Positions 8,293 through 17,916 of a stretch of 64,000 nt of DNA are shown here, piece after piece. The first letter of the stretch is position 1. Every line of letters begins with the position of its first letter. The notes beneath the pieces were generated by a model. That model was not told the origin of the DNA. It did no database searches and worked only from the letters and a program-made list of their open reading frames with translations. Origin of the DNA: Chloroflexota bacterium. GTDB taxonomy: Bacteria; Chloroflexota; Anaerolineae; UBA1429. The stretch covers positions 153,782 to 217,781 of the forward strand of contig JAAYDC010000006.1 of assembly GCA_012729455.1 (NCBI GenBank). Direction: 5' to 3'. A program made the translations under genes and the position numbers.

Positions 8293-11040
8293 TTATGGGA
8301 CGGGCGTTTCCGTCGCAGGTTCAGGTTCAGGAGGAAGCGTCGGCGCCGGCTCGGTCGTAGCGGTGGAAGTTGGCGGCTCGGTAGGCGGAGGCGGTACAGA
8401 GGTCGCCGTTTCATCCGGCTCGGGTGTCACCGTTGGCGGCGCCGGTGTGGGAGTTTCCTTGGTTGGCTTGGGTGTATGACTCGGTTTTTCTTCGGGCTTT
8501 AACGTCGGCTTCTCGGGAGTAGGCGTCGGCTGGTTGTTGAGGATCTCGACGATCACCCGCGCCTCATAGGTATGGCCGGTCTGGTCGTGCACCACCACGC
8601 GCAGGGTGTAGACGCCATCGGGCAGCGTGCGGGTATCCCACCGCATCAGCACGCCACTCACCACCATCTGGTGCTGCTGGCCTGTGAGGGTGCCCCAGCC
8701 GATCGGATCAGTGCCCTCGCCATATTCGACTATGTAATAGTCAAACCCATCTACCTGGGTAGAGCCACGAATCTGGGCTATCCCCGAAAGCGGCAGCGAC
8801 GGCGCCGAAATTTCGACATTACTGGGGGCAGTGTGGATATCGCAGGTTTCGCGACCCGGCACAGGATTGCCATTGGCAGCCAGCCAGTCATCCCATTGGG
8901 GACCGTAATCCTCCACCGGCTGGTCTTGGACCGTCTCGAGCGGACAGTAGGTGTTTGCCAACTTGTTCGAAACCGTGCAAATGTGCTGACGCACATGCAC
9001 CGTACAAGGCTCTTTGGGAAGGTAATCTACAGCAAAGAGCTCGGTTTTGCCAGATGGGCAATCCGGGTTGCGCAGCATGCCCGAAAGGGCACAGACCTCG
9101 AGCTCGACGATACCCTCCGGGCGCTGGAAGTCCGGGTGGTCGCTGTTGGCCAAGGCGATTAGCATAAAATCGTGCCAGATGGGGCCGGCACCGAACGAAC
9201 CGCCCACGCCCTTCATCTCCGAGTAATCGGCATTGCCCACCCACACGCCGGTGACCAGATCGGGAGTGTAGCCGATGGTGTAGCCATCGCGGTAATCGTT
9301 GGTAGTACCGGTCTTGGCTGCAGCCGGGAAACCGAGCACCAGCGGGTTATCTACACCAAAGACGATGCTGCGCGCTTCGTTATCCGAGAGGATATCGGTG
9401 ATCAGATACGCCAGGCGGTTATCGACCACCTGCGGCTGGTCGAAGGGTTGGTCAGGAATCAGCACTTGACCATCCACCGATTCGATGCGCAAAACCGTGC
9501 GCGGTGTCACCAGTCGGCCTTCGTTGGCCAACCCAGCGTAGGCAGCAGTCATCTGCAGCAGACTGACCTCGCCGCCGCCCAGAGTAAGCGAGAGACCATA
9601 GTAATCAGCAGTGAGGGTGTCGACACCAAAGCGGAACATCATCTCGATCAACGCCGGTATGCCCACCTGTTGCAGCGTGTATACAGCCGGGATGTTGCGC
9701 GAGGTAGCGAGCGCCACACGCAGCGAGATCGGTCCCAGCTCTTTCATATCGACATTGGTTGGGTGGAAGGGCTCGTTGGCTCCGTCGGGGAAATCCTGCT
9801 CCACGTCCATCAGCATGGTGGCGGGCGTCCAACCCTTTTCAAAGGCCGCCAGAAAGGTAAAGGGCTTGATGGTTGAACCGGGCTGGCGCATGCTGCGCGC
9901 AATGTTGACCTGCCCGCTGATCTCGGCGTTGTTAAAATCGGCGCTGCCCACCATGGCGAGCACATCGCCGTTACGCGGGTCGATTGCCACCAACGAACCG
10001 TTGGTCACGTGGTAATCGGCCAGAACCGCGACACGCTCAGCAACGATGCGTTCGGCCTCGCGCTGTAGTCCGAGATCGAGCGTGGTATAGACCTGCAGAC
10101 CGCCTTTATAAAGCGCCTCGGTGCCATACTGGGCCTCGATCAGCTCGCGCACATACATCACCAGGTGCGGCGCCTGGATCGAGGTCGTCTGCTGGATGAT
10201 GCCCAGCGGCTCAGCAGCGGCGGCATCTGCCTCGGCCTGGGTGATGTATTCGGCGGTCACCATTAGGTCGAGCACTACACGGCGCCGTTCAAGCGCGGCA
10301 TCCGGATACAGGCAGGGGTCATACATGGCGGGCGACTGCAACAAGCCGGCGATCAGGGCCGACTCCGCCAGTGTCAGGTCGGAGGCCTTTTTACTGTAAT
10401 ACGATTCAGCAGCGGCATTGATACCGTAGGCCAGATTGCCAAAGTAAACCTCATTGAGGTAAGCCTCGAGGATTTCCTCTTTACTGTAACGGCGCGTGAT
10501 TTCACCCGCCAGGATGGCTTCTCTGATCTTGCGTGACATGCTCTGTTCGGTCGACAGGAACACGTTCTTGACCAGCTGCTGGGTGATGGTGCTGGCGCCC
10601 GAGACGGTGCGCCTAGCCCGCAGATTCTGGTAGATAGCACGCAAAATACTGGGGATGCTAAAGCCGGGGTTGCTGAAAAAGGTGCGGTCTTCGGTAGCGA
10701 CGACGGCCTTTATCACCCATGGTGAGATCTGGTCATACTTGACGAGGGTTCTGCGGCCGCCCTCCGGGTCGAATACATCATACAAGAGGATGCCGTTGCG
10801 GTCATAGATGCGCGTGCTCTGGAATCGGACCACGCGCTGGTGAAGCTCCTGGGGAGAAGGCAGGTCGCGGGCATAAAAGATATAGATGGCAATGCTGGCG
10901 AGGACTGCCAGTACGATCGCGCCGGTGGTGCCCAGGAAGGCATACATCAGCCCCTGGCTAAAGCGTTTGCCTGCCGAGGGATGATAAGCTGGATCAGGCA
11001 CAAAGTGTGCATACGGGTTAGCGGGATAGTTCGGCGCCAT
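8293..11040 (-). CDS. class A penicillin-binding protein (PBP1A-type) with Ig-like and Thr/Pro-rich C-terminal extension
   Basis: A 915-residue bifunctional peptidoglycan synthase. A single membrane anchor spans about 34-56. The GT51 glycosyltransferase domain has catalytic E117 in VVATEDRTFF, plus GASTITQQLVKNVFLS and RKIREAILAGEI. The transpeptidase has SxxK (S389-T-I-K392), SxN (S447-R-N) and KTGTT (K576). After about residue 680 there is an Ig-like beta domain (YYIVEYGEGTDPIGW...GVLMRWDTRTLPDGVYTLRV), then a tail of about 80 residues rich in T-P-x-P-E. The same Ig-like domain occurs in the secreted protein at 22932. ATG 11040 follows AGGA. It has its own promoter and lies downstream of the ABC-F gene. 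Confidence 0.94.
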   Translation of the reverse strand: MAPNYPANPYAHFVPDPAYHPSAGKRFSQGLMYAFLGTTGAIVLAVLASIAIYIFYARDLPSPQELHQRVVRFQSTRIYDRNGILLYDVFDPEGGRRTLVKYDQISPWVIKAVVATEDRTFFSNPGFSIPSILRAIYQNLRARRTVSGASTITQQLVKNVFLSTEQSMSRKIREAILAGEITRRYSKEEILEAYLNEVYFGNLAYGINAAAESYYSKKASDLTLAESALIAGLLQSPAMYDPCLYPDAALERRRVVLDLMVTAEYITQAEADAAAAEPLGIIQQTTSIQAPHLVMYVRELIEAQYGTEALYKGGLQVYTTLDLGLQREAERIVAERVAVLADYHVTNGSLVAIDPRNGDVLAMVGSADFNNAEISGQVNIARSMRQPGSTIKPFTFLAAFEKGWTPATMLMDVEQDFPDGANEPFHPTNVDMKELGPISLRVALATSRNIPAVYTLQQVGIPALIEMMFRFGVDTLTADYYGLSLTLGGGEVSLLQMTAAYAGLANEGRLVTPRTVLRIESVDGQVLIPDQPFDQPQVVDNRLAYLITDILSDNEARSIVFGVDNPLVLGFPAAAKTGTTNDYRDGYTIGYTPDLVTGVWVGNADYSEMKGVGGSFGAGPIWHDFMLIALANSDHPDFQRPEGIVELEVCALSGMLRNPDCPSGKTELFAVDYLPKEPCTVHVRQHICTVSNKLANTYCPLETVQDQPVEDYGPQWDDWLAANGNPVPGRETCDIHTAPSNVEISAPSLPLSGIAQIRGSTQVDGFDYYIVEYGEGTDPIGWGTLTGQQHQMVVSGVLMRWDTRTLPDGVYTLRVVVHDQTGHTYEARVIVEILNNQPTPTPEKPTLKPEEKPSHTPKPTKETPTPAPPTVTPEPDETATSVPPPPTEPPTSTATTEPAPTLPPEPEPATETPVP

Positions 11041-11066
11041 AACACGTCCTGAGGTTATGATGATTC

Positions 11067-11096
11067 ATTGTATGCCAAAACACCTCACCTGACCAA
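11067..11096 (-). promoter_or_regulatory. promoter of the PBP gene
   Basis: On the minus strand, TTGGTC (11096-11091), an 18-base spacer and TACAAT (11072-11067), in the 65-base gap after the ABC-F gene. Confidence 0.5.
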
Positions 11097-11105
11097 AGGT
11101 CGCGT

Positions 11106-12764
11106 TCAACGCAGTATGCGCAGGTAGCTCTCGTAATCTGGCAGGCGCTGGATGGAGGTGTCCTCGATTGTCCAAACCGCGCTGGCATAGCGCTGCGCAA
11201 AATAGCGGTCGTGCACCACTGCCAACACTGTACCGCTGAAACCAGCCAGGGCGTGCTCAAAACGCTCGCGCGAGGGGATATCGAGGTGATTAATGGGCTC
11301 ATCCAGCAAGAGCAGGTTGCAGCGCTGCAAGACGAGTATCCCCAACGCCAGGCGGGCACGCTCACCGTAACTCAGGCTGCCCGAGGGCGTGAAAACCTCG
11401 TCGCCCTTGAAAAGGAAATAGTGCAGAAAAGTGCGCGCTTGTGATTCGTCCAGCGCAGCATTGGCGCGCACCAGGTCGTAGGGGGACAGGGCGGCATCAA
11501 TAGTATCCTGGCTTTGCGAAAGGTAACCGACCTTGACATTACTCCCCAGGCGTACACTGCCCTGGCTGGGCGGCTCGAGACCCATGATGATGCGCAGGAG
11601 GGTGGTTTTGCCGGTGCCGTTGGGCCCCAGTAGGACGATGCGTTCCTGGCGACGCAGGGTTAGGTAAACGTCTTTAAACAGTACCAGGTCGCCAAAGCGC
11701 TTGCCGAGATCCTGCAGAATGAGCACATCCTGGCCAGATTCAGGCGTTTCGGCGAACTCGAGCTTTATATCGTAGCTTTGTTGCGGTTTTTCCAAGTGGT
11801 CTTCCGAGTTCAACATGCGCTCGATGCGCTTGCGGTGCACTACCGCAGCACGCGCCACCTTGAGGGCACGCTTACGCCAGTAAAAGTCGATCGTCTCGCC
11901 CTCGATCTTACGCGCCTGGCCCTCCAAGCCGCGCACGGTGCTCTGCAGCCCGGCAATGCGCACCTCCTGCTCGCGGTAGGCTTGGGCATATTTCACGCGT
12001 TCGGTCTCTTTGGCGGCGGTATAGTCGCTATAGTTGCCCGCATAATTCGTCATCGTCTGTTTTTGGGGGTCGATTTCTAGGATGCGGTTGACAACCTGAT
12101 CCAAAAAAGTGCGGTCGTGCGAGACGATCAGCATGCCGGCGCGCGAGCGGCTGAGGTAGCGCTCCAGCCACTGCAAACCGCTGATATCGAGGTGGTTGGT
12201 GGGTTCGTCCAGGATGAGAAACGCCGGCCGAGAAAGCAAAAGCTGCGCCAGGCCGAGGCGCGTCTTTTGCCCGCCGGAGAGAATCGCCACCGGCTGGTCG
12301 AGAGCCAGGCTATCCAGGTTGAGGCCTGCCAGGATCTCTTTGAGTTCGTGCTCCTGCACGCTCTGGTCGGCGCTCGAGAGGCGCTCCAGCACCTCATGAT
12401 AGGCTGCTTCGACTGCCTCGCGGTTATCCAGCTGCGCCCGGGTGAGCTGTTCGGCCAGGCGCTCCAATTCGGCAGCCAAGGCGTCGTCATCATGGCGCTC
12501 ACCGCCCAGGTAGGCCCGTAGCGTGGCATCTGCCGGCAAGTCGAGTGCTTGCGGCAAATAACCGACCGCACTCATGGGCACGTCCCAGCGCACTGCACCG
12601 CTATCGGATGACTCTTCGCCCAGGATGATGCGGATGAGGGTGGTCTTGCCGGAACCGTTGGGCCCGACAAGGCCGACACGTTCGCCGGCGTTGATCACGG
12701 TGCTGGCCTGCTTGAACAGCAGCCGGCCGCCATAGCTTTTGGTGATATCAGACAGGTGCAGCAT
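11106..12764 (-). CDS. ABC-F family ribosome-protection-type ATPase
   Basis: A 552-residue cytosolic protein with two ABC domains and no membrane segment. Domain 1 has Walker A GPNGSGKTT (34-42), signature LSGGQ (162-166) and FLILDEPTNHLD. Domain 2 has GPNGTGKTT (370-378), signature LSYGE and LLLLDEPINHLD. The interdomain linker (about 236-330) is long, helical and basic (DFYWRKRALKVARAAVVHRK). This is the P-site tRNA interaction motif that separates antibiotic-protection ABC-F proteins from short-linker housekeeping ones. Whether this one confers resistance is inference. The start ATG 12764 has AGAAGG upstream and lies 17 bases inside the HAD gene, so the two are translationally coupled. Upstream control is by the attenuator-like leader at 13398-13578. 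Confidence 0.9.
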   Translation of the reverse strand: MLHLSDITKSYGGRLLFKQASTVINAGERVGLVGPNGSGKTTLIRIILGEESSDSGAVRWDVPMSAVGYLPQALDLPADATLRAYLGGERHDDDALAAELERLAEQLTRAQLDNREAVEAAYHEVLERLSSADQSVQEHELKEILAGLNLDSLALDQPVAILSGGQKTRLGLAQLLLSRPAFLILDEPTNHLDISGLQWLERYLSRSRAGMLIVSHDRTFLDQVVNRILEIDPQKQTMTNYAGNYSDYTAAKETERVKYAQAYREQEVRIAGLQSTVRGLEGQARKIEGETIDFYWRKRALKVARAAVVHRKRIERMLNSEDHLEKPQQSYDIKLEFAETPESGQDVLILQDLGKRFGDLVLFKDVYLTLRRQERIVLLGPNGTGKTTLLRIIMGLEPPSQGSVRLGSNVKVGYLSQSQDTIDAALSPYDLVRANAALDESQARTFLHYFLFKGDEVFTPSGSLSYGERARLALGILVLQRCNLLLLDEPINHLDIPSRERFEHALAGFSGTVLAVVHDRYFAQRYASAVWTIEDTSIQRLPDYESYLRILR

Positions 12765-13398
12765 GTTCACCTTCTTGCATGCTGGAGGCAGGTTGCTCGG
12801 TTGGCAGGTAAACCTGCAGCTGGCGGTCGAGTTCGTCTTCGCCGACATACCACAGGATGTGCATGCCCTGCGCGGCAGCCGCCGCGACACTTTCGGCACG
12901 GTCATCGATAAAGAGCGCTTCGTGCGCCGCGACCCCTTCGGTGCGCAGCACCTTGAGAAATATGCCGGCATCCGGCTTGGTCACGCCCAGATCGCATGAG
13001 ATGTAGATGGCGTCCAGATGCGCGGTCAGTCCGTGCTGCTCCAGAAGGGGCGCGATCACATCTGAAGCGTTACTGAGGAGTGCCACGCGATAGTGTGCGC
13101 GCATGCGATCGACCCAGGCAAGCACTCTCGGATTCACCGCAAAGGCGCCCCAGAGCTCGGCGCGCATCACCTGCAGCTCCTGCGGGGTTGCCAGCGGAAA
13201 CTGACTTGCGAGGCTCTCCCAGTAGGCATGATCACTGATCTCGCCGATCTCGGAGAGCCGGCAGCCTTCACTCTCCCAGAGGATCCGGCGCAGTTCTTCG
13301 GTCGTGAGCCCATATTTGGCCGCCCAGCGCGCCTTGATGTGCGCATCATCGGCTTTCATTACCACACCACCGCAATCGAACAAAACCAGTTTGATCAT
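12748..13398 (-). CDS. HAD-superfamily phosphatase (subfamily IA)
   Basis: A 216-residue soluble phosphatase. ATG 13398 follows AGGAG by eight bases; the 25 extra residues in the longer frame would be read through the terminator. Motif I is VLFDCGGVV (nucleophile D8; the usual second Asp is Gly, as in the FDxGGV/GNV branch that includes YihX). Motif II is VALLSNASD, followed by a Lys in motif III (GVTKPDAGIF) and motif IV ALFIDDRAESVAAAAAQGM. The branch includes sugar-phosphate and nucleotide phosphatases; the substrate is unknown. Its last 17 bases overlap the ABC-F gene, an unusual partner that implies co-expression. Confidence 0.88.
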   Translation of the reverse strand: MIKLVLFDCGGVVMKADDAHIKARWAAKYGLTTEELRRILWESEGCRLSEIGEISDHAYWESLASQFPLATPQELQVMRAELWGAFAVNPRVLAWVDRMRAHYRVALLSNASDVIAPLLEQHGLTAHLDAIYISCDLGVTKPDAGIFLKVLRTEGVAAHEALFIDDRAESVAAAAAQGMHILWYVGEDELDRQLQVYLPTEQPASSMQEGEHAAPV

Positions 13399-13425
13399 CC
13401 TTATGACTCCTCGCAGAAATAGAAA

Positions 13426-13451
13426 ACGCCGCAGGCACAGCCCGCGGCGTT
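13426..13451 (-). terminator. intrinsic terminator inside the HAD/ABC-F leader (candidate attenuator)
   Basis: On the minus strand, AACGCCGCGGG pairs with CCTGCGGCGTT across a five-base loop (about 11 pairs, one G-T), followed by TTTTCTATTTCT. It lies between the promoter at 13578-13550 and the HAD start at 13398, so transcripts from that promoter must read through it. It would also stop transcripts coming from the upstream glycosidase operon. Confidence 0.8.
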
Positions 13452-13503
13452 GATGTCCATATAACGATCGCAAACAGATCCGACCATGGGCAAGTGCTGC
13501 TGG

Positions 13504-13524
13504 TTAGATCTGGCTGGTCGTCAT
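13504..13524 (-). CDS. putative six-residue leader peptide (MTTSQI)
   Basis: A six-codon ORF with the best ribosome-binding site in the area: GGAGG seven bases before ATG 13524. It begins about 20 bases after the predicted transcription start and about 55 bases before the terminator hairpin. An even shorter ORF (MEADE) overlaps it upstream, with its TGA inside the second ATG. Very short leader peptides that control ABC-F resistance genes by ribosome stalling are known, for example for msrD. The assignment here rests on layout only. Confidence 0.5.
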   Translation of the reverse strand: MTTSQI

Positions 13525-13549
13525 TCGTCTGCCTCCATGTACTTATCGC

Positions 13550-13578
13550 AGTATAAAGCCGGCGCGCTCACTTGTCAA
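13550..13578 (-). promoter_or_regulatory. near-consensus promoter for the leader peptide-HAD-ABC-F unit
   Basis: On the minus strand, TTGACA (13578-13573), a 17-base spacer and TATACT (13555-13550). The -35 box lies in the last codons of the upstream gene. No annotated gene other than the leader ORF lies between this promoter and the terminator. Confidence 0.8.
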
Positions 13579-14944
13579 TGGATACAATGCGGCAACCGGA
13601 GCCGTCGGTCACCTCGATCCTGCGGCCGTCGAGCTCCAGCCAGGCGCGCTGCCCTTCAGAGCCCGCGAAATCGCTGCGGCGCACCAGCAGGCGATCGCCC
13701 AGACGCAGCGCCGATAGCACGGCGCCCTCGCGCCGCGGTACATCAAAGGTTACCGGCACGCCACCTGTCAGGAACTCGGCATATTCGAGCGACTCGGCCC
13801 ACGTCTCATGCAAGAGAGGCGCCTCGTGGGCTGCCTCGTCATCCGGGCACCACGAGAAAAAGGCGTCGTGTCCGCGCAACAGGGCATGCCACAATAGCTC
13901 ACGATAAGCCGCCTCGGACATCGGTTGCACGTGCCCCAAGCCCTCAGCGGGCGGATCCGTCACATTATGGTGCACAAAGCTGATGATCGGCAGGCCCCTG
14001 GGGGCGCTCTGGCCGGCATTTGAGGCTACCTTGAGCATATTGTAGAACCAGCGGTAGTCCGTCGTATAGTCGTACCAGTCGTAGGTGCGGTACCAGGTAT
14101 ACATCACCGGCATGGCAAAGCTGTAGCCAGTTCCGCTGAACTCGTCTGCCCAAGGCCGCGCCGGCTCACGCGCATCAAAAGCGTGCGGCAGGCTGGGTTT
14201 AAAACGCTCGAAATAATCGTACCAGTAACGCCAGCCATTGTGTGGATAGACCGCATAGTTGCCCACCAGCGCCTGCGGCCAGCGGCTCAGGAGCGGCTGC
14301 GCATAGACCTGCCGTTGCATCTCTCCGCGCAGCGTGCGCAGGGTGTGCTGAAAGCTGGTGAAATCCTCGATCTGCGGCAGCTGTGCGCGGCAGCGCGAGC
14401 ATCGCTTGCTGTGCTCCCAGGCGTCGTTCCACTCGAGCGGACCGTCGACTTCCCAGTCGGAGTATACAAACCCGAGCTGCAAGCCGGCGCGCTGATAGGC
14501 ATCGGCGTAGAATTCGACCTGCGAACGGATCGCTCCATAGCGCTGCTCGATGCCAAAGGGGCAGCCCATCGGCACCTTGCCGAACGAGTCGTCGAAAAAG
14601 GACTGTCTCTGGTCATCAACATGCGCCGTCGCAGGTGAGCCATCGAAGAAACTATACAGCGGGGCGATGCAGTTGGCGCCCACCAGCAACCCCAGCTCCT
14701 GCTGGATGCGCCCCAGTCTCAACGCCTGCGCCAGGCTCTCGTCGCGCTCATCGCCAGTGGTCCACCTGGCCAGCATGGCGATGCCGCGACGATCCAGCTC
14801 GCGCAGGGCGTCGGCCAGGGCGGTGTCGGAAAGATCCGGCGTGCCCTGCAGCTGCCACAAAAAGAGCGGCAGACGCTCGCCGCGCGGCCAGCGCAGCGGC
14901 TGGGTGCGTTCCAGGATCATCTGGAGGTGCGCCAGGCTGGTCAC
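13568..14944 (-). CDS. orphan TIM-barrel-like protein, possible glycoside hydrolase
   Basis: A 458-residue protein without a signal peptide. I do not recognise the family. It has glycosidase-like features: aromatic-rich segments (NGWRYWYDYFERF, MYTWYRTYDWYDYTTDYRWF), acidic strand ends (GFVYSDWEVDGPLEW), a Cys pair (CSRCRAQL) and a small C-terminal beta domain of the GRRIEVTDG type seen after GH barrels. FFSWCPDDEAAHEAP could hold a late-barrel acidic residue. Its start overlaps the stop of the GH106-like gene by four bases (ATGA), so it is translated from the same mRNA and probably acts on the same glycan. Function remains unassigned. Confidence 0.65.
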   Translation of the reverse strand: MTSLAHLQMILERTQPLRWPRGERLPLFLWQLQGTPDLSDTALADALRELDRRGIAMLARWTTGDERDESLAQALRLGRIQQELGLLVGANCIAPLYSFFDGSPATAHVDDQRQSFFDDSFGKVPMGCPFGIEQRYGAIRSQVEFYADAYQRAGLQLGFVYSDWEVDGPLEWNDAWEHSKRCSRCRAQLPQIEDFTSFQHTLRTLRGEMQRQVYAQPLLSRWPQALVGNYAVYPHNGWRYWYDYFERFKPSLPHAFDAREPARPWADEFSGTGYSFAMPVMYTWYRTYDWYDYTTDYRWFYNMLKVASNAGQSAPRGLPIISFVHHNVTDPPAEGLGHVQPMSEAAYRELLWHALLRGHDAFFSWCPDDEAAHEAPLLHETWAESLEYAEFLTGGVPVTFDVPRREGAVLSALRLGDRLLVRRSDFAGSEGQRAWLELDGRRIEVTDGSGCRIVSIDK

Positions 14945-17916
14945 GGCTGAGGCTCCAGCTCGAGACCAAAGGGCATCACGCAGTAGCCCTCGTTCCAGGC
15001 GCTGTAACCCCAGATGTTGGGCTCCTTGAAGAACAGGCCGGGATGCACGACATAGCTCTCGCCCTGCTCGAGATGGTGCGGCCCCAACAGGTTACGCAGC
15101 CCACTCGTCAGAGTGATGCTAAAGCTGTTTTCACCTTCCTTGAGATACGCGCTCACGTCGGCGCAGTAGGGACGCCACAGCCAGGTCTTGACCGACTGGC
15201 CGTTGACGCACAACTTGGTGATCTGGGCGCGCTGCTCGCTGTAGCAAAACGCGCGTGCGGCAAGCTCGTTGGCTGCCAGATTCACCGTCTTGGTCAGGCG
15301 CACTTTACCGTTGAAGAAGGGCAAGCCCTGGATGGTCAGGTCGGTTATCTCGGCGCTCTCGGGCAGCGGCGCGAGTACCAGGTCGCCCGTGTAACGCCAG
15401 GCATTCAGCTTTAGGCGTTCAAAGTTGCCGGGTGTGGCTACGGCAAAGTTGCCCACCAGATAGCTGGCCTCGATCTCGCTGTCATAGGTCAGCTTGTTCT
15501 TTTCGGCCTCAAAGACCTGCGCACGCTTCAGGTTCTCGTAAACTTTGGCACTTTGTTCAAAGCGGGTCTCGAGCACGATCTCGTTGACGCCGGGCTGCAG
15601 CAAGCCACTGATGTTGAGCTTGCGGAAGGCACTATCGCGGTAAAAGCCCTCTTCGCGCTGTGAGATAGCCTTGTCGTTGATGCTCACACGCAGTTTCTCG
15701 GGCTGTTCCACCACCAGCCACAGGTCGCCGGGAGGGGTAAAGCCCTCAGCCACCTGCACCTGATAGCGCAGCTTGATCTCGACTGGACGGCCAAGGGCCA
15801 GAGCGCGCCCCTGCACCACGCTGACAGATTCGTGTTCAGCAATCAGCTCGCCATCGAACCAGATATCGCAGTAATCCAGAGTCAGCGAGTTCGGATCGAG
15901 CAGCTCGAGCTGCCACTTGCCGGCAAAGAGGTCGGCCGGCAGAGCTTGCAGCGGTTTGGCTTTTTCTGCCGATGGGGCAGCCGCTGCAGAGGTAAACACC
16001 GCCACGCACAACGACCCACGCCGCGGGAAGGTATGCTCGATCACCAGCTGGTCGCCTTCGGTGTGCCAGGTGATCGGTTCCAACGTGCCGTCTTCCAGCA
16101 CGATGCGCACTGCGCTACCGCCCTGCATCCTAATGCGCGCGGCATAGTCGTGCTCGGTATCGGCATTGGCGAAAAAGTAGATTACTGCGGCGCCTTGATC
16201 ATTGAAATCGCCGACGCAGCGCTTGGTATACGTGATCGGGGCGATCTCTACGCCGTCTGCCGTAGCGATCGACACTACCCGCAGCGAGGCCAGCGCGGCG
16301 TTCAGGTCGGTCAAATCCACCCGCTTGCCGTGCGCCGTCAGTGCCTTTAGTGCCTCCGAAGGTTCGGCATTCACCATGGTAGGCAACTGCTCCACCCAGA
16401 TGATCTGACCGCCGCCATCGGCAAAGGCGCTCAGCAGTGCAACCGTGCTTGGTTCGAGGGTCTCGATGGGCGGCACCACCACCGTGCTATAGCTCTGCGT
16501 GCCCACAACTAGCTTGGCGCCCTCTACCAGGCCATGACGGCGCAGGATGCGCTCATCGCCATAGTGAAAGAGCACGTGTTCGGCTTCGAGGGCCTGGCCG
16601 ACCGCCATAAAGCTCTGCGAGAGCTCTTTGAGGCCTGGGTTTTCCTCATTGTCGTAATGCAGCCAGGCGCTCTGCTGCGGATGAAGCATCAGCACGTCAT
16701 AGCGCACGTCGCCTTTAGCTAGGAGCATGCCCAGGCGCGAGACCATGTCGGTAAAGTGGCGGAAATCGGGCCACCACGGCTCGTGGTAAAAGAACGAGGG
16801 CGGATAGTCGCGCTTGCGGATGCCGCGCAGCGAATAGCCCTGCAGGTGCTGGCAGAGGCTTGTTACACCGCGTACACACTGCCAGTCAAACATCCATTTT
16901 AGCTCTTCAAAGGTCACGTTCCAACCGGTGAGCGCAAAGGTTTCGCTGAGGATCTGGCGGCGCCCCAACTGGTGCGATACCGACGCAACCTGCAGGGGAG
17001 TGGTGATCGGATTGATGCTACGCCCCAGCCAGTCCATGCCAGGCATGTGGAAGAACTCGTAATGCGGCATCACCGCGGCATTTGAGGTGATCTGGCTATG
17101 AAGGGTCTCTTCCAGCACCATGTGCCCCGTCAACTGGGCTCCGTGCGCCTCACACCAGTCATAGATCTGCTGGGTAAAGTTCATCACAAAGAGCTCTTGC
17201 ACCAGCCACCAGAAGCGATGGCGCGTACGCTGGTAGCCTTCAACCTCCAGGAACAATCCCGGCAGGGCTGGCACCAAGTCTTCATCAAAGGTTTTACGGT
17301 ACTCGTCGATCATCATCAGCGACCAGGGGATGCCGTTGCGCGAAACCTGCGGCTCGTCGGTGAAAAAGCCCGGCATGGCACGCCCCATGTCATTCTGGAA
17401 GAGTTCATAGTAGGGCTGGTAGATCTCTTCCAAAAAAGCAGCCGTCACGGCACGGTCGAGGGTATCGACGTAAAAGGGGTTGACGTCGTAATAAAAGTGC
17501 AGAATACGCCCATCTCCGAGGGTAACGTTGGCGATGGTGCGGCCATCCTCACCCTCGGTGTTTTTCTCAACGACCTCATAGCGCAGATACTTTTGCTGCC
17601 AGACCTCGCCGCGGCCGTTAATAATCCCATTTCCGAACCCGCTCGGCCAGCCGTTCTCGTCATAAGCCCAGGCGCCCATACCACGCTCGCGGGCTTCTTC
17701 GATGCCGGCGCGGATGTTGTCCATCCATTCCTGCTGCATATAGGGCGTCTGCAGACCGCCGCGGGCATGCATAAAGTAACCGCCGATGCCGGCTTTTTCC
17801 ATCTCGTCGATCTGGCGGCGGGTTTCGGCCTCGTTGAGGCGCTCATTCCACGACCAGAAGGGGATTGGACGGTATTTGTTTGGCGGATTGGGCAGCTTTG
17901 AGGCGATGTTTCCCAT
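14941..17916 (-). CDS. GH106-like alpha-L-rhamnosidase family protein
   Basis: A 991-residue protein with no signal peptide. The opening (RPIPFWSWNERLNEAETRRQ, then GIGGYFMHARGGLQTPYM and WAYDENGWPSGFGNG) is characteristic of GH106 and related enzymes, which are large multi-domain rhamnosidases. A catalytic-barrel region of about 450 residues is followed by beta-rich domains. The C-terminal one (about 700-985) has galactose-binding-like features (WQLELLDPNSLTLDYCDIWF, LPFFNGKVRLTKTVNL). The rhamnosidase activity is inferred; related families act on other deoxy- or acidic sugars. It has its own promoter, AAGGAG before ATG 17916, and leads an operon with the orphan barrel protein. A RhaD-like aldolase lies 3 kb away. 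Confidence 0.75.
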   Translation of the reverse strand: MGNIASKLPNPPNKYRPIPFWSWNERLNEAETRRQIDEMEKAGIGGYFMHARGGLQTPYMQQEWMDNIRAGIEEARERGMGAWAYDENGWPSGFGNGIINGRGEVWQQKYLRYEVVEKNTEGEDGRTIANVTLGDGRILHFYYDVNPFYVDTLDRAVTAAFLEEIYQPYYELFQNDMGRAMPGFFTDEPQVSRNGIPWSLMMIDEYRKTFDEDLVPALPGLFLEVEGYQRTRHRFWWLVQELFVMNFTQQIYDWCEAHGAQLTGHMVLEETLHSQITSNAAVMPHYEFFHMPGMDWLGRSINPITTPLQVASVSHQLGRRQILSETFALTGWNVTFEELKWMFDWQCVRGVTSLCQHLQGYSLRGIRKRDYPPSFFYHEPWWPDFRHFTDMVSRLGMLLAKGDVRYDVLMLHPQQSAWLHYDNEENPGLKELSQSFMAVGQALEAEHVLFHYGDERILRRHGLVEGAKLVVGTQSYSTVVVPPIETLEPSTVALLSAFADGGGQIIWVEQLPTMVNAEPSEALKALTAHGKRVDLTDLNAALASLRVVSIATADGVEIAPITYTKRCVGDFNDQGAAVIYFFANADTEHDYAARIRMQGGSAVRIVLEDGTLEPITWHTEGDQLVIEHTFPRRGSLCVAVFTSAAAAPSAEKAKPLQALPADLFAGKWQLELLDPNSLTLDYCDIWFDGELIAEHESVSVVQGRALALGRPVEIKLRYQVQVAEGFTPPGDLWLVVEQPEKLRVSINDKAISQREEGFYRDSAFRKLNISGLLQPGVNEIVLETRFEQSAKVYENLKRAQVFEAEKNKLTYDSEIEASYLVGNFAVATPGNFERLKLNAWRYTGDLVLAPLPESAEITDLTIQGLPFFNGKVRLTKTVNLAANELAARAFCYSEQRAQITKLCVNGQSVKTWLWRPYCADVSAYLKEGENSFSITLTSGLRNLLGPHHLEQGESYVVHPGLFFKEPNIWGYSAWNEGYCVMPFGLELEPQP

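Follow-up and report, generated by a model that had tools for sequence, protein, structure and literature searches.

The Bacillus subtilis ABC-F gene vmlR is preceded by a leader in which a three-codon upstream open reading frame (uORF) lies within an anti-antiterminator, with an antiterminator and a terminator; drugs that stall ribosomes as they initiate act as its inducers (PMC9226507). Comparable short uORFs are known for cplR, VmlR2, and LsaA, and cplR, whose transcripts terminate early when no drug is present, uses both transcription and translation attenuation (PMC10201436). Control of msrD involves ribosome stalling on a leader ORF and responds to cladinose-containing macrolides (PMC10314930). 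The inducible ABC-F leaders that we found in the literature belong to Firmicutes and Actinobacteria; none from Chloroflexota was found, in a search that most subscription papers lay outside. Here we describe a segment on the minus strand of a 64,000-nucleotide stretch of DNA from a Chloroflexota bacterium of the class Anaerolineae (the whole stretch is called the window), which quite likely acts as a ribosome-mediated attenuator of transcription ahead of an ABC-F operon, opened by a translation inhibitor. We read it as an ABC-F attenuator of the already known vmlR type, apparently undescribed in Chloroflexota. Its parts, and the genes behind it, are these:

13550..13578, minus strand: promoter TTGACA-17-TATACT, an 11/12 match and the top promoter match within 10000-16000
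13532..13536, minus strand: Shine-Dalgarno sequence (SD) of the uORF, GGAGG
13504..13524, minus strand: six-codon uORF MTTSQI* (ATG ACG ACC AGC CAG ATC TAA); that of the nearest relative is MTCFQI*
13461..13524, minus strand: predicted anti-antiterminator hairpin, with the uORF inside, that conceals the antiterminator segment; -26.4 kcal/mol before the terminator is transcribed
13481..13500, minus strand: antiterminator segment GCAGCACUUGCCCAUGGUCG, whose pairing with 13449-13435 is worth -20.1 kcal/mol
13435..13449, minus strand: target of the antiterminator, that is, the terminator 5' arm and loop
13415..13451, minus strand: intrinsic terminator stem-loop and T-rich tail
13407..13410, minus strand: SD of the HAD gene
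12748..13398, minus strand: HAD-IA family hydrolase; its gene, with the ATG at 13398, comes first in the operon
11106..12764, minus strand: ABC-F ATPase, ribosomal-protection-like by NF000355 (428 bits, above the curated cut-off)

The window leader resembles that of vmlR in having a very short, SD-led uORF inside an anti-antiterminator hairpin, an antiterminator, an intrinsic terminator, and an ABC-F target, and start-proximal stalling would turn on both. The two come, however, from different phyla and have no recognisable sequence relation, being likened by their parts rather than by alignment; the uORF is MIN in vmlR and MTTSQI in the window, the HAD gene stands between the window leader and the ABC-F gene, and no pause hairpin or SD-sequestering hairpin was identified in the window leader. 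Short, variable uORFs (MR[I/M], MAGN) also lie 5' of the ABC-F genes cplR, lmo0919, and lsaA, but unlike cplR the window shows transcription attenuation only, what appears to be an anti-SD form being seen in the Anaerolineae family f36 (below). As with msrD, an ABC-F gene would be under the control of ribosome stalling on a leader ORF, although the window-type uORF peptide is conserved only in its Thr/Ile second residue.

On the computations reported here, the window leader would function as vmlR does. Transcription would begin about 20 nt 5' of the six-codon uORF. With no ribosome held, the uORF RNA would fold into the anti-antiterminator hairpin and hide the antiterminator, the terminator would then form, and RNA polymerase would halt before the HAD and ABC-F genes. 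With a ribosome trapped by a translation inhibitor on the uORF start codon or close to it, this hairpin would be blocked, and the freed antiterminator would pair with the emerging 5' arm and loop of the terminator, so that transcription would enter the operon. The attenuator is real and conserved, is most likely ribosome-mediated, and is probably drug-induced. Computation shows that the parts are present and conserved, that the pairing co-varies, and that it depends on a ribosome at the start codon; we infer that the uORF is translated, that drugs are the inducer, and that the ABC-F protects the ribosome.

A preliminary description, made from the letters of the window, had proposed such an attenuator, and its interpretation is largely supported. 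The near-consensus promoter that it placed at 13578-13550 is borne out, the six-codon ORF MTTSQI and its GGAGG are located as claimed (13524-13504 and 13536-13532), and before the HAD start there is indeed a strong terminator, with a stem at 13451-13425 of 12 pairs, a 3-nt loop, and a T-rich tail after it (-22.3 kcal/mol). It had also held that no other promoter follows the terminator, and a second promoter sought nearby was not found. The whole leader folds better than 200 of 200 dinucleotide shuffles (z -3.4). The end of the HAD gene (12748) and the start of the ABC-F gene (12764) overlap by 17 nt, which suggests that their translation is coupled. Two genes lie upstream of the leader (window 13568-17916, minus strand). 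One encodes an alpha-L-rhamnosidase-like protein (PF17132) and the other a 458-residue protein without a Pfam or NCBIfam match, whose stop codon falls within the promoter spacer and which has a homologue, at 73% identity, at the same place in G001.

The pairing previously suggested to break the terminator, 13500-13488 with 13443-13431, exists, with 11 pairs rather than the ten then counted (-15.9 kcal/mol), and a longer alternative, 13497-13481 with 13449-13435, is stronger (-20.1 kcal/mol). The antiterminator segment had been drawn too short: it mainly uses the terminator 5' arm and loop, and it extends past the segment first claimed. In many leaders the terminator 5' arm and loop have their match in a segment that lies directly after the uORF or within its final codons, as in L009 (AAUGCCCAC with GUGGGCGUU), L002 (GCCCAGUGG with CCACGGGC), L150 (GUGCAUCCC with GGGUGCAU), and both L221 and L222 (GGAAAGC[CU] with GGCUUUCC). 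The covariation check that the preliminary description had called for came out in its favour: when one leader was drawn per family, leaders paired better with the 5' arm and loop of their own terminators than with those of other families, by 1.9 kcal/mol (p about 0.004). The same exchange with the loop and 3' arm was not significant (p 0.15), nor was own versus other pairing within the window's family alone (p 0.54), perhaps a matter of few leaders with similar terminators, and within-group exchange tests were weak. A best-duplex test against shuffles separated the two arms poorly (combined p 4e-4 for the 5' arm, 5e-3 for the 3' arm), whereas the one-leader-per-family exchange test did separate them. 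Because leader and own terminator co-vary across lineages, the comparisons support a functional pairing between them.

To examine ribosome dependence, RNA ending at the terminator loop was modelled in three states: with a ribosome (footprint -20 to +15) on the uORF start, with one on the uORF stop, and with none. For each state the mean pairing between leader and terminator 5' arm was set against 100 shuffle sets. Class-wide, the modelled leaders, with the uORF hand-picked where a leader offered more than one, gave mean pairings of 0.63 with the ribosome at the start, 0.55 at the stop, and 0.56 with no ribosome, versus 0.52, 0.52, and 0.55 for shuffled leaders. The start state alone exceeded the shuffles (z 5.3, versus z 0.4 for the no-ribosome state), and none of the 100 shuffle sets attained either the start-minus-none or the start-minus-stop difference. 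For the window the corresponding pairings were 0.71, 0.62, and 0.28, and the rise with a start ribosome in this leader alone was matched by 2 of 100 shuffles; tested singly, the effect lay within shuffles for four of six same-family leaders. These values agree with the earlier proposal that a ribosome stalled early would free the antiterminator. Its counterpart, that a ribosome at the stop codon would cover the antiterminator, is not supported for the window, where the model leaves most of the pairing in place (0.62). Without a ribosome the window antiterminator is held in the 13524-13461 hairpin (-26.4 kcal/mol), and in the model the OFF default of the window is better explained by this hairpin than by masking by a stop-codon ribosome. 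Such masking may operate elsewhere in the class, since class-wide start-stalled pairing exceeds stop-stalled pairing. In the full transcript at equilibrium the terminator always folds, and the switch must therefore be kinetic.

HAD orthologues adjoin the ABC-F gene in most of 15 same-family genomes, and in most of them promoter, SD, uORF, terminator, HAD, and ABC-F still follow one another in this sequence, despite leader DNA diverged beyond reliable alignment. Where scored, the same-family promoters read TTGACA-(16/17)-TATA[AC]T and lie 25-29 nt 5' of the uORF, and the uORFs are MTCFQI, MTISRAL, MGIAIACRLG, MFSDAKNVRFS, and MIDSGCMAAPGGAGRTA. Terminators are present in seven of nine same-family HAD leaders, with none seen in the other two (L005 and L006). 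In the comparison of homologous leaders that had been proposed, promoter, SD-led uORF, and terminator are kept in most same-family genomes, whereas the MTTSQI peptide is not conserved beyond the Thr or Ile at residue 2. The nearest relative, G001, retains the upstream gene and the CAGATC...GGATCTG hairpin arms around the antiterminator, and in G007 the leader sits directly on the ABC-F gene with no HAD gene between. Because leaders diverge so fast, direct DNA searches fail to recover them: against 100 relatives the sole match was of 30 nt, to the terminator, in G080, where the surrounding sequence is without leader-like features. A contig scan with the HAD alignment returned known family members only and no new leaders. 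Tandem terminators, two per leader, were seen in L004, 5' of HAD, and in L162, L213, and L224, 5' of ABC-F.

Orthologues of the ABC-F protein (about 40-52% identity) occur in more than 100 Anaerolineae genomes, nearly always without a HAD gene; as this is so, and as the G007 leader lies directly on ABC-F, the leader appears to belong with the ABC-F gene and not with the HAD gene. A strong terminator lies within 160 nt of the gene in 47 of 97 orthologue upstream regions, about half of the class's orthologues having none seen upstream, versus 1 of 20 regions upstream of paralogous ABC-F genes, and often it stands 24-30 nt before the ABC-F start. The terminator-bearing leaders number 59, from 17 families (16 besides the window's, with ABC-F alone). 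Of these, 50 carry an SD-led uORF no longer than 25 codons, versus 12.8 expected from shuffles, and 32 carry an ATG uORF with a five-base SD (2.8 expected); a promoter matching at least 10/12 lies just 5' of the uORF in 23 of the 42 leaders with enough upstream sequence (0.4 expected).

These counts bear on two other readings. The hairpin could simply terminate transcription of the rhamnosidase-like genes upstream, with the HAD and ABC-F genes expressed by leakage or from an unseen promoter, and the same-strand upstream gene does end at 13568, just 117 nt before the terminator; but a near-consensus promoter and an SD-led uORF stand between that gene and the hairpin, the triple of promoter, SD-uORF, and hairpin is found again before orthologues in many families, and the control paralogue is without terminators (1 of 20), all of which makes this reading very unlikely. 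We consider it extremely improbable that the segment is a metabolite- or protein-binding, riboswitch-like attenuator for the HAD phosphatase, in which the uORF is incidental. HAD comes first in the operon, and some relatives have long structured leaders, as such a reading would have it, but Rfam gave no credible match, and none at gathering score, for the window and 16 leaders searched, uORFs are four times commoner than chance, and leaders outside the family, as well as G007 inside it, lie directly on ABC-F without HAD.

Within the ribosome-mediated attenuator, the uORF peptide is not conserved except for its Thr/Ile second residue, which suggests that stalling would occur close to the start codon. 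Thr or Ile occupies residue 2 in 34 of 49 uORFs, again hand-picked where a leader offered more than one, versus 11 of 106 baseline ORF starts (10%), and as the bias is seen again in most families it does not reflect shared ancestry alone. The signature could lie in the nucleotides ATGAY or in a stalling preference. A ribosome-mediated device of this kind might, instead of drugs, sense amino-acid supply or the general state of translation, since very short, initiation-pausing uORFs could report initiation or elongation defects, and vmlR responds also to ribosome assembly defects (PMC9226507). We judge this unlikely, as the uORF codons vary widely and contain no single-amino-acid run, the start-proximal position suits drugs that stall initiation, and the controlled gene is a ribosomal-protection-like ABC-F.

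Lying second in the operon, behind HAD, the window ABC-F passes the cut-off of the NCBIfam model NF000355 (ribosomal-protection-like ABC-F), while none of the models for the named antibiotic-resistance (ARE) subfamilies Vga, Msr, Lsa, Sal, OptrA, and TlrC reaches its own cut-off on it. Among solved relatives it scores best with 8buu (named ExpZ; 264 bits), followed closely by YheS and EttA. On sequence grounds ribosome protection is its likely, putative function.

Three things are unusual here: a HAD gene separates the leader from ABC-F, a single class holds a broad range of divergent versions, and the uORFs bear a Met-Thr/Ile signature. A bolder reading, which we hold to be less likely than not, is that ABC-F attenuators diversified into a large set in the Anaerolineae, some acting on transcription and others on translation, around Met-Thr and Met-Ile uORFs that sense inhibitors trapping the ribosome in its first elongation steps, and that in one family a HAD phosphatase was drawn into the drug response. 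The dozens of divergent leaders on one orthologous gene form a natural series for the uORF features and RNA pairings that are required, and for the kind of stalling sensed the repeated Thr/Ile second codon offers a specific clue. These leaders further suggest that exposure to ribosome-targeting antibiotics is frequent enough among environmental Chloroflexota for an inducible defence to be retained.

A second design is seen in family f36, whose ABC-F orthologues are mostly without terminators and where several leaders carry three-codon uORFs (MTD, MID, MTN, MIQ, MIR, and MTE). There the SD and start of the ABC-F gene have a match in a segment located at the uORF stop or beyond it, with compensating differences (UAAGUUCACUCC with GGAGUAAACUUA; UAAGUUCAUUCC with GGAAUGAACUUA). 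L176, L187, L188, L198, L200, L204, and L216 all carry such a segment, able to pair with the SD and start codon of ABC-F, and the pairing exceeds shuffles individually in just some leaders. We regard this as a lead, to a probable translation attenuator of the same ABC-F gene.

Two further groups of leaders were observed. Nine leaders (L192, L195, L199, L201, L205, L211, L212, L214, and L217) have a family of uORFs close to MTDxL, and in these a recurrent AGGGCA could pair with the terminator loop and 3' arm (TGCCCT), a different antiterminator geometry. Another nine, all 5' of ABC-F (L131, L133, L134, L141, L143, L145, L146, L147, and L159), are long leaders in which a conserved block like GGCAGGTTCGTGGCGGGACCACGCGCCTGCTGTGA is followed by a terminator like ACGCCGCAGGCGC; with no Rfam match, they are a candidate new structured RNA family.
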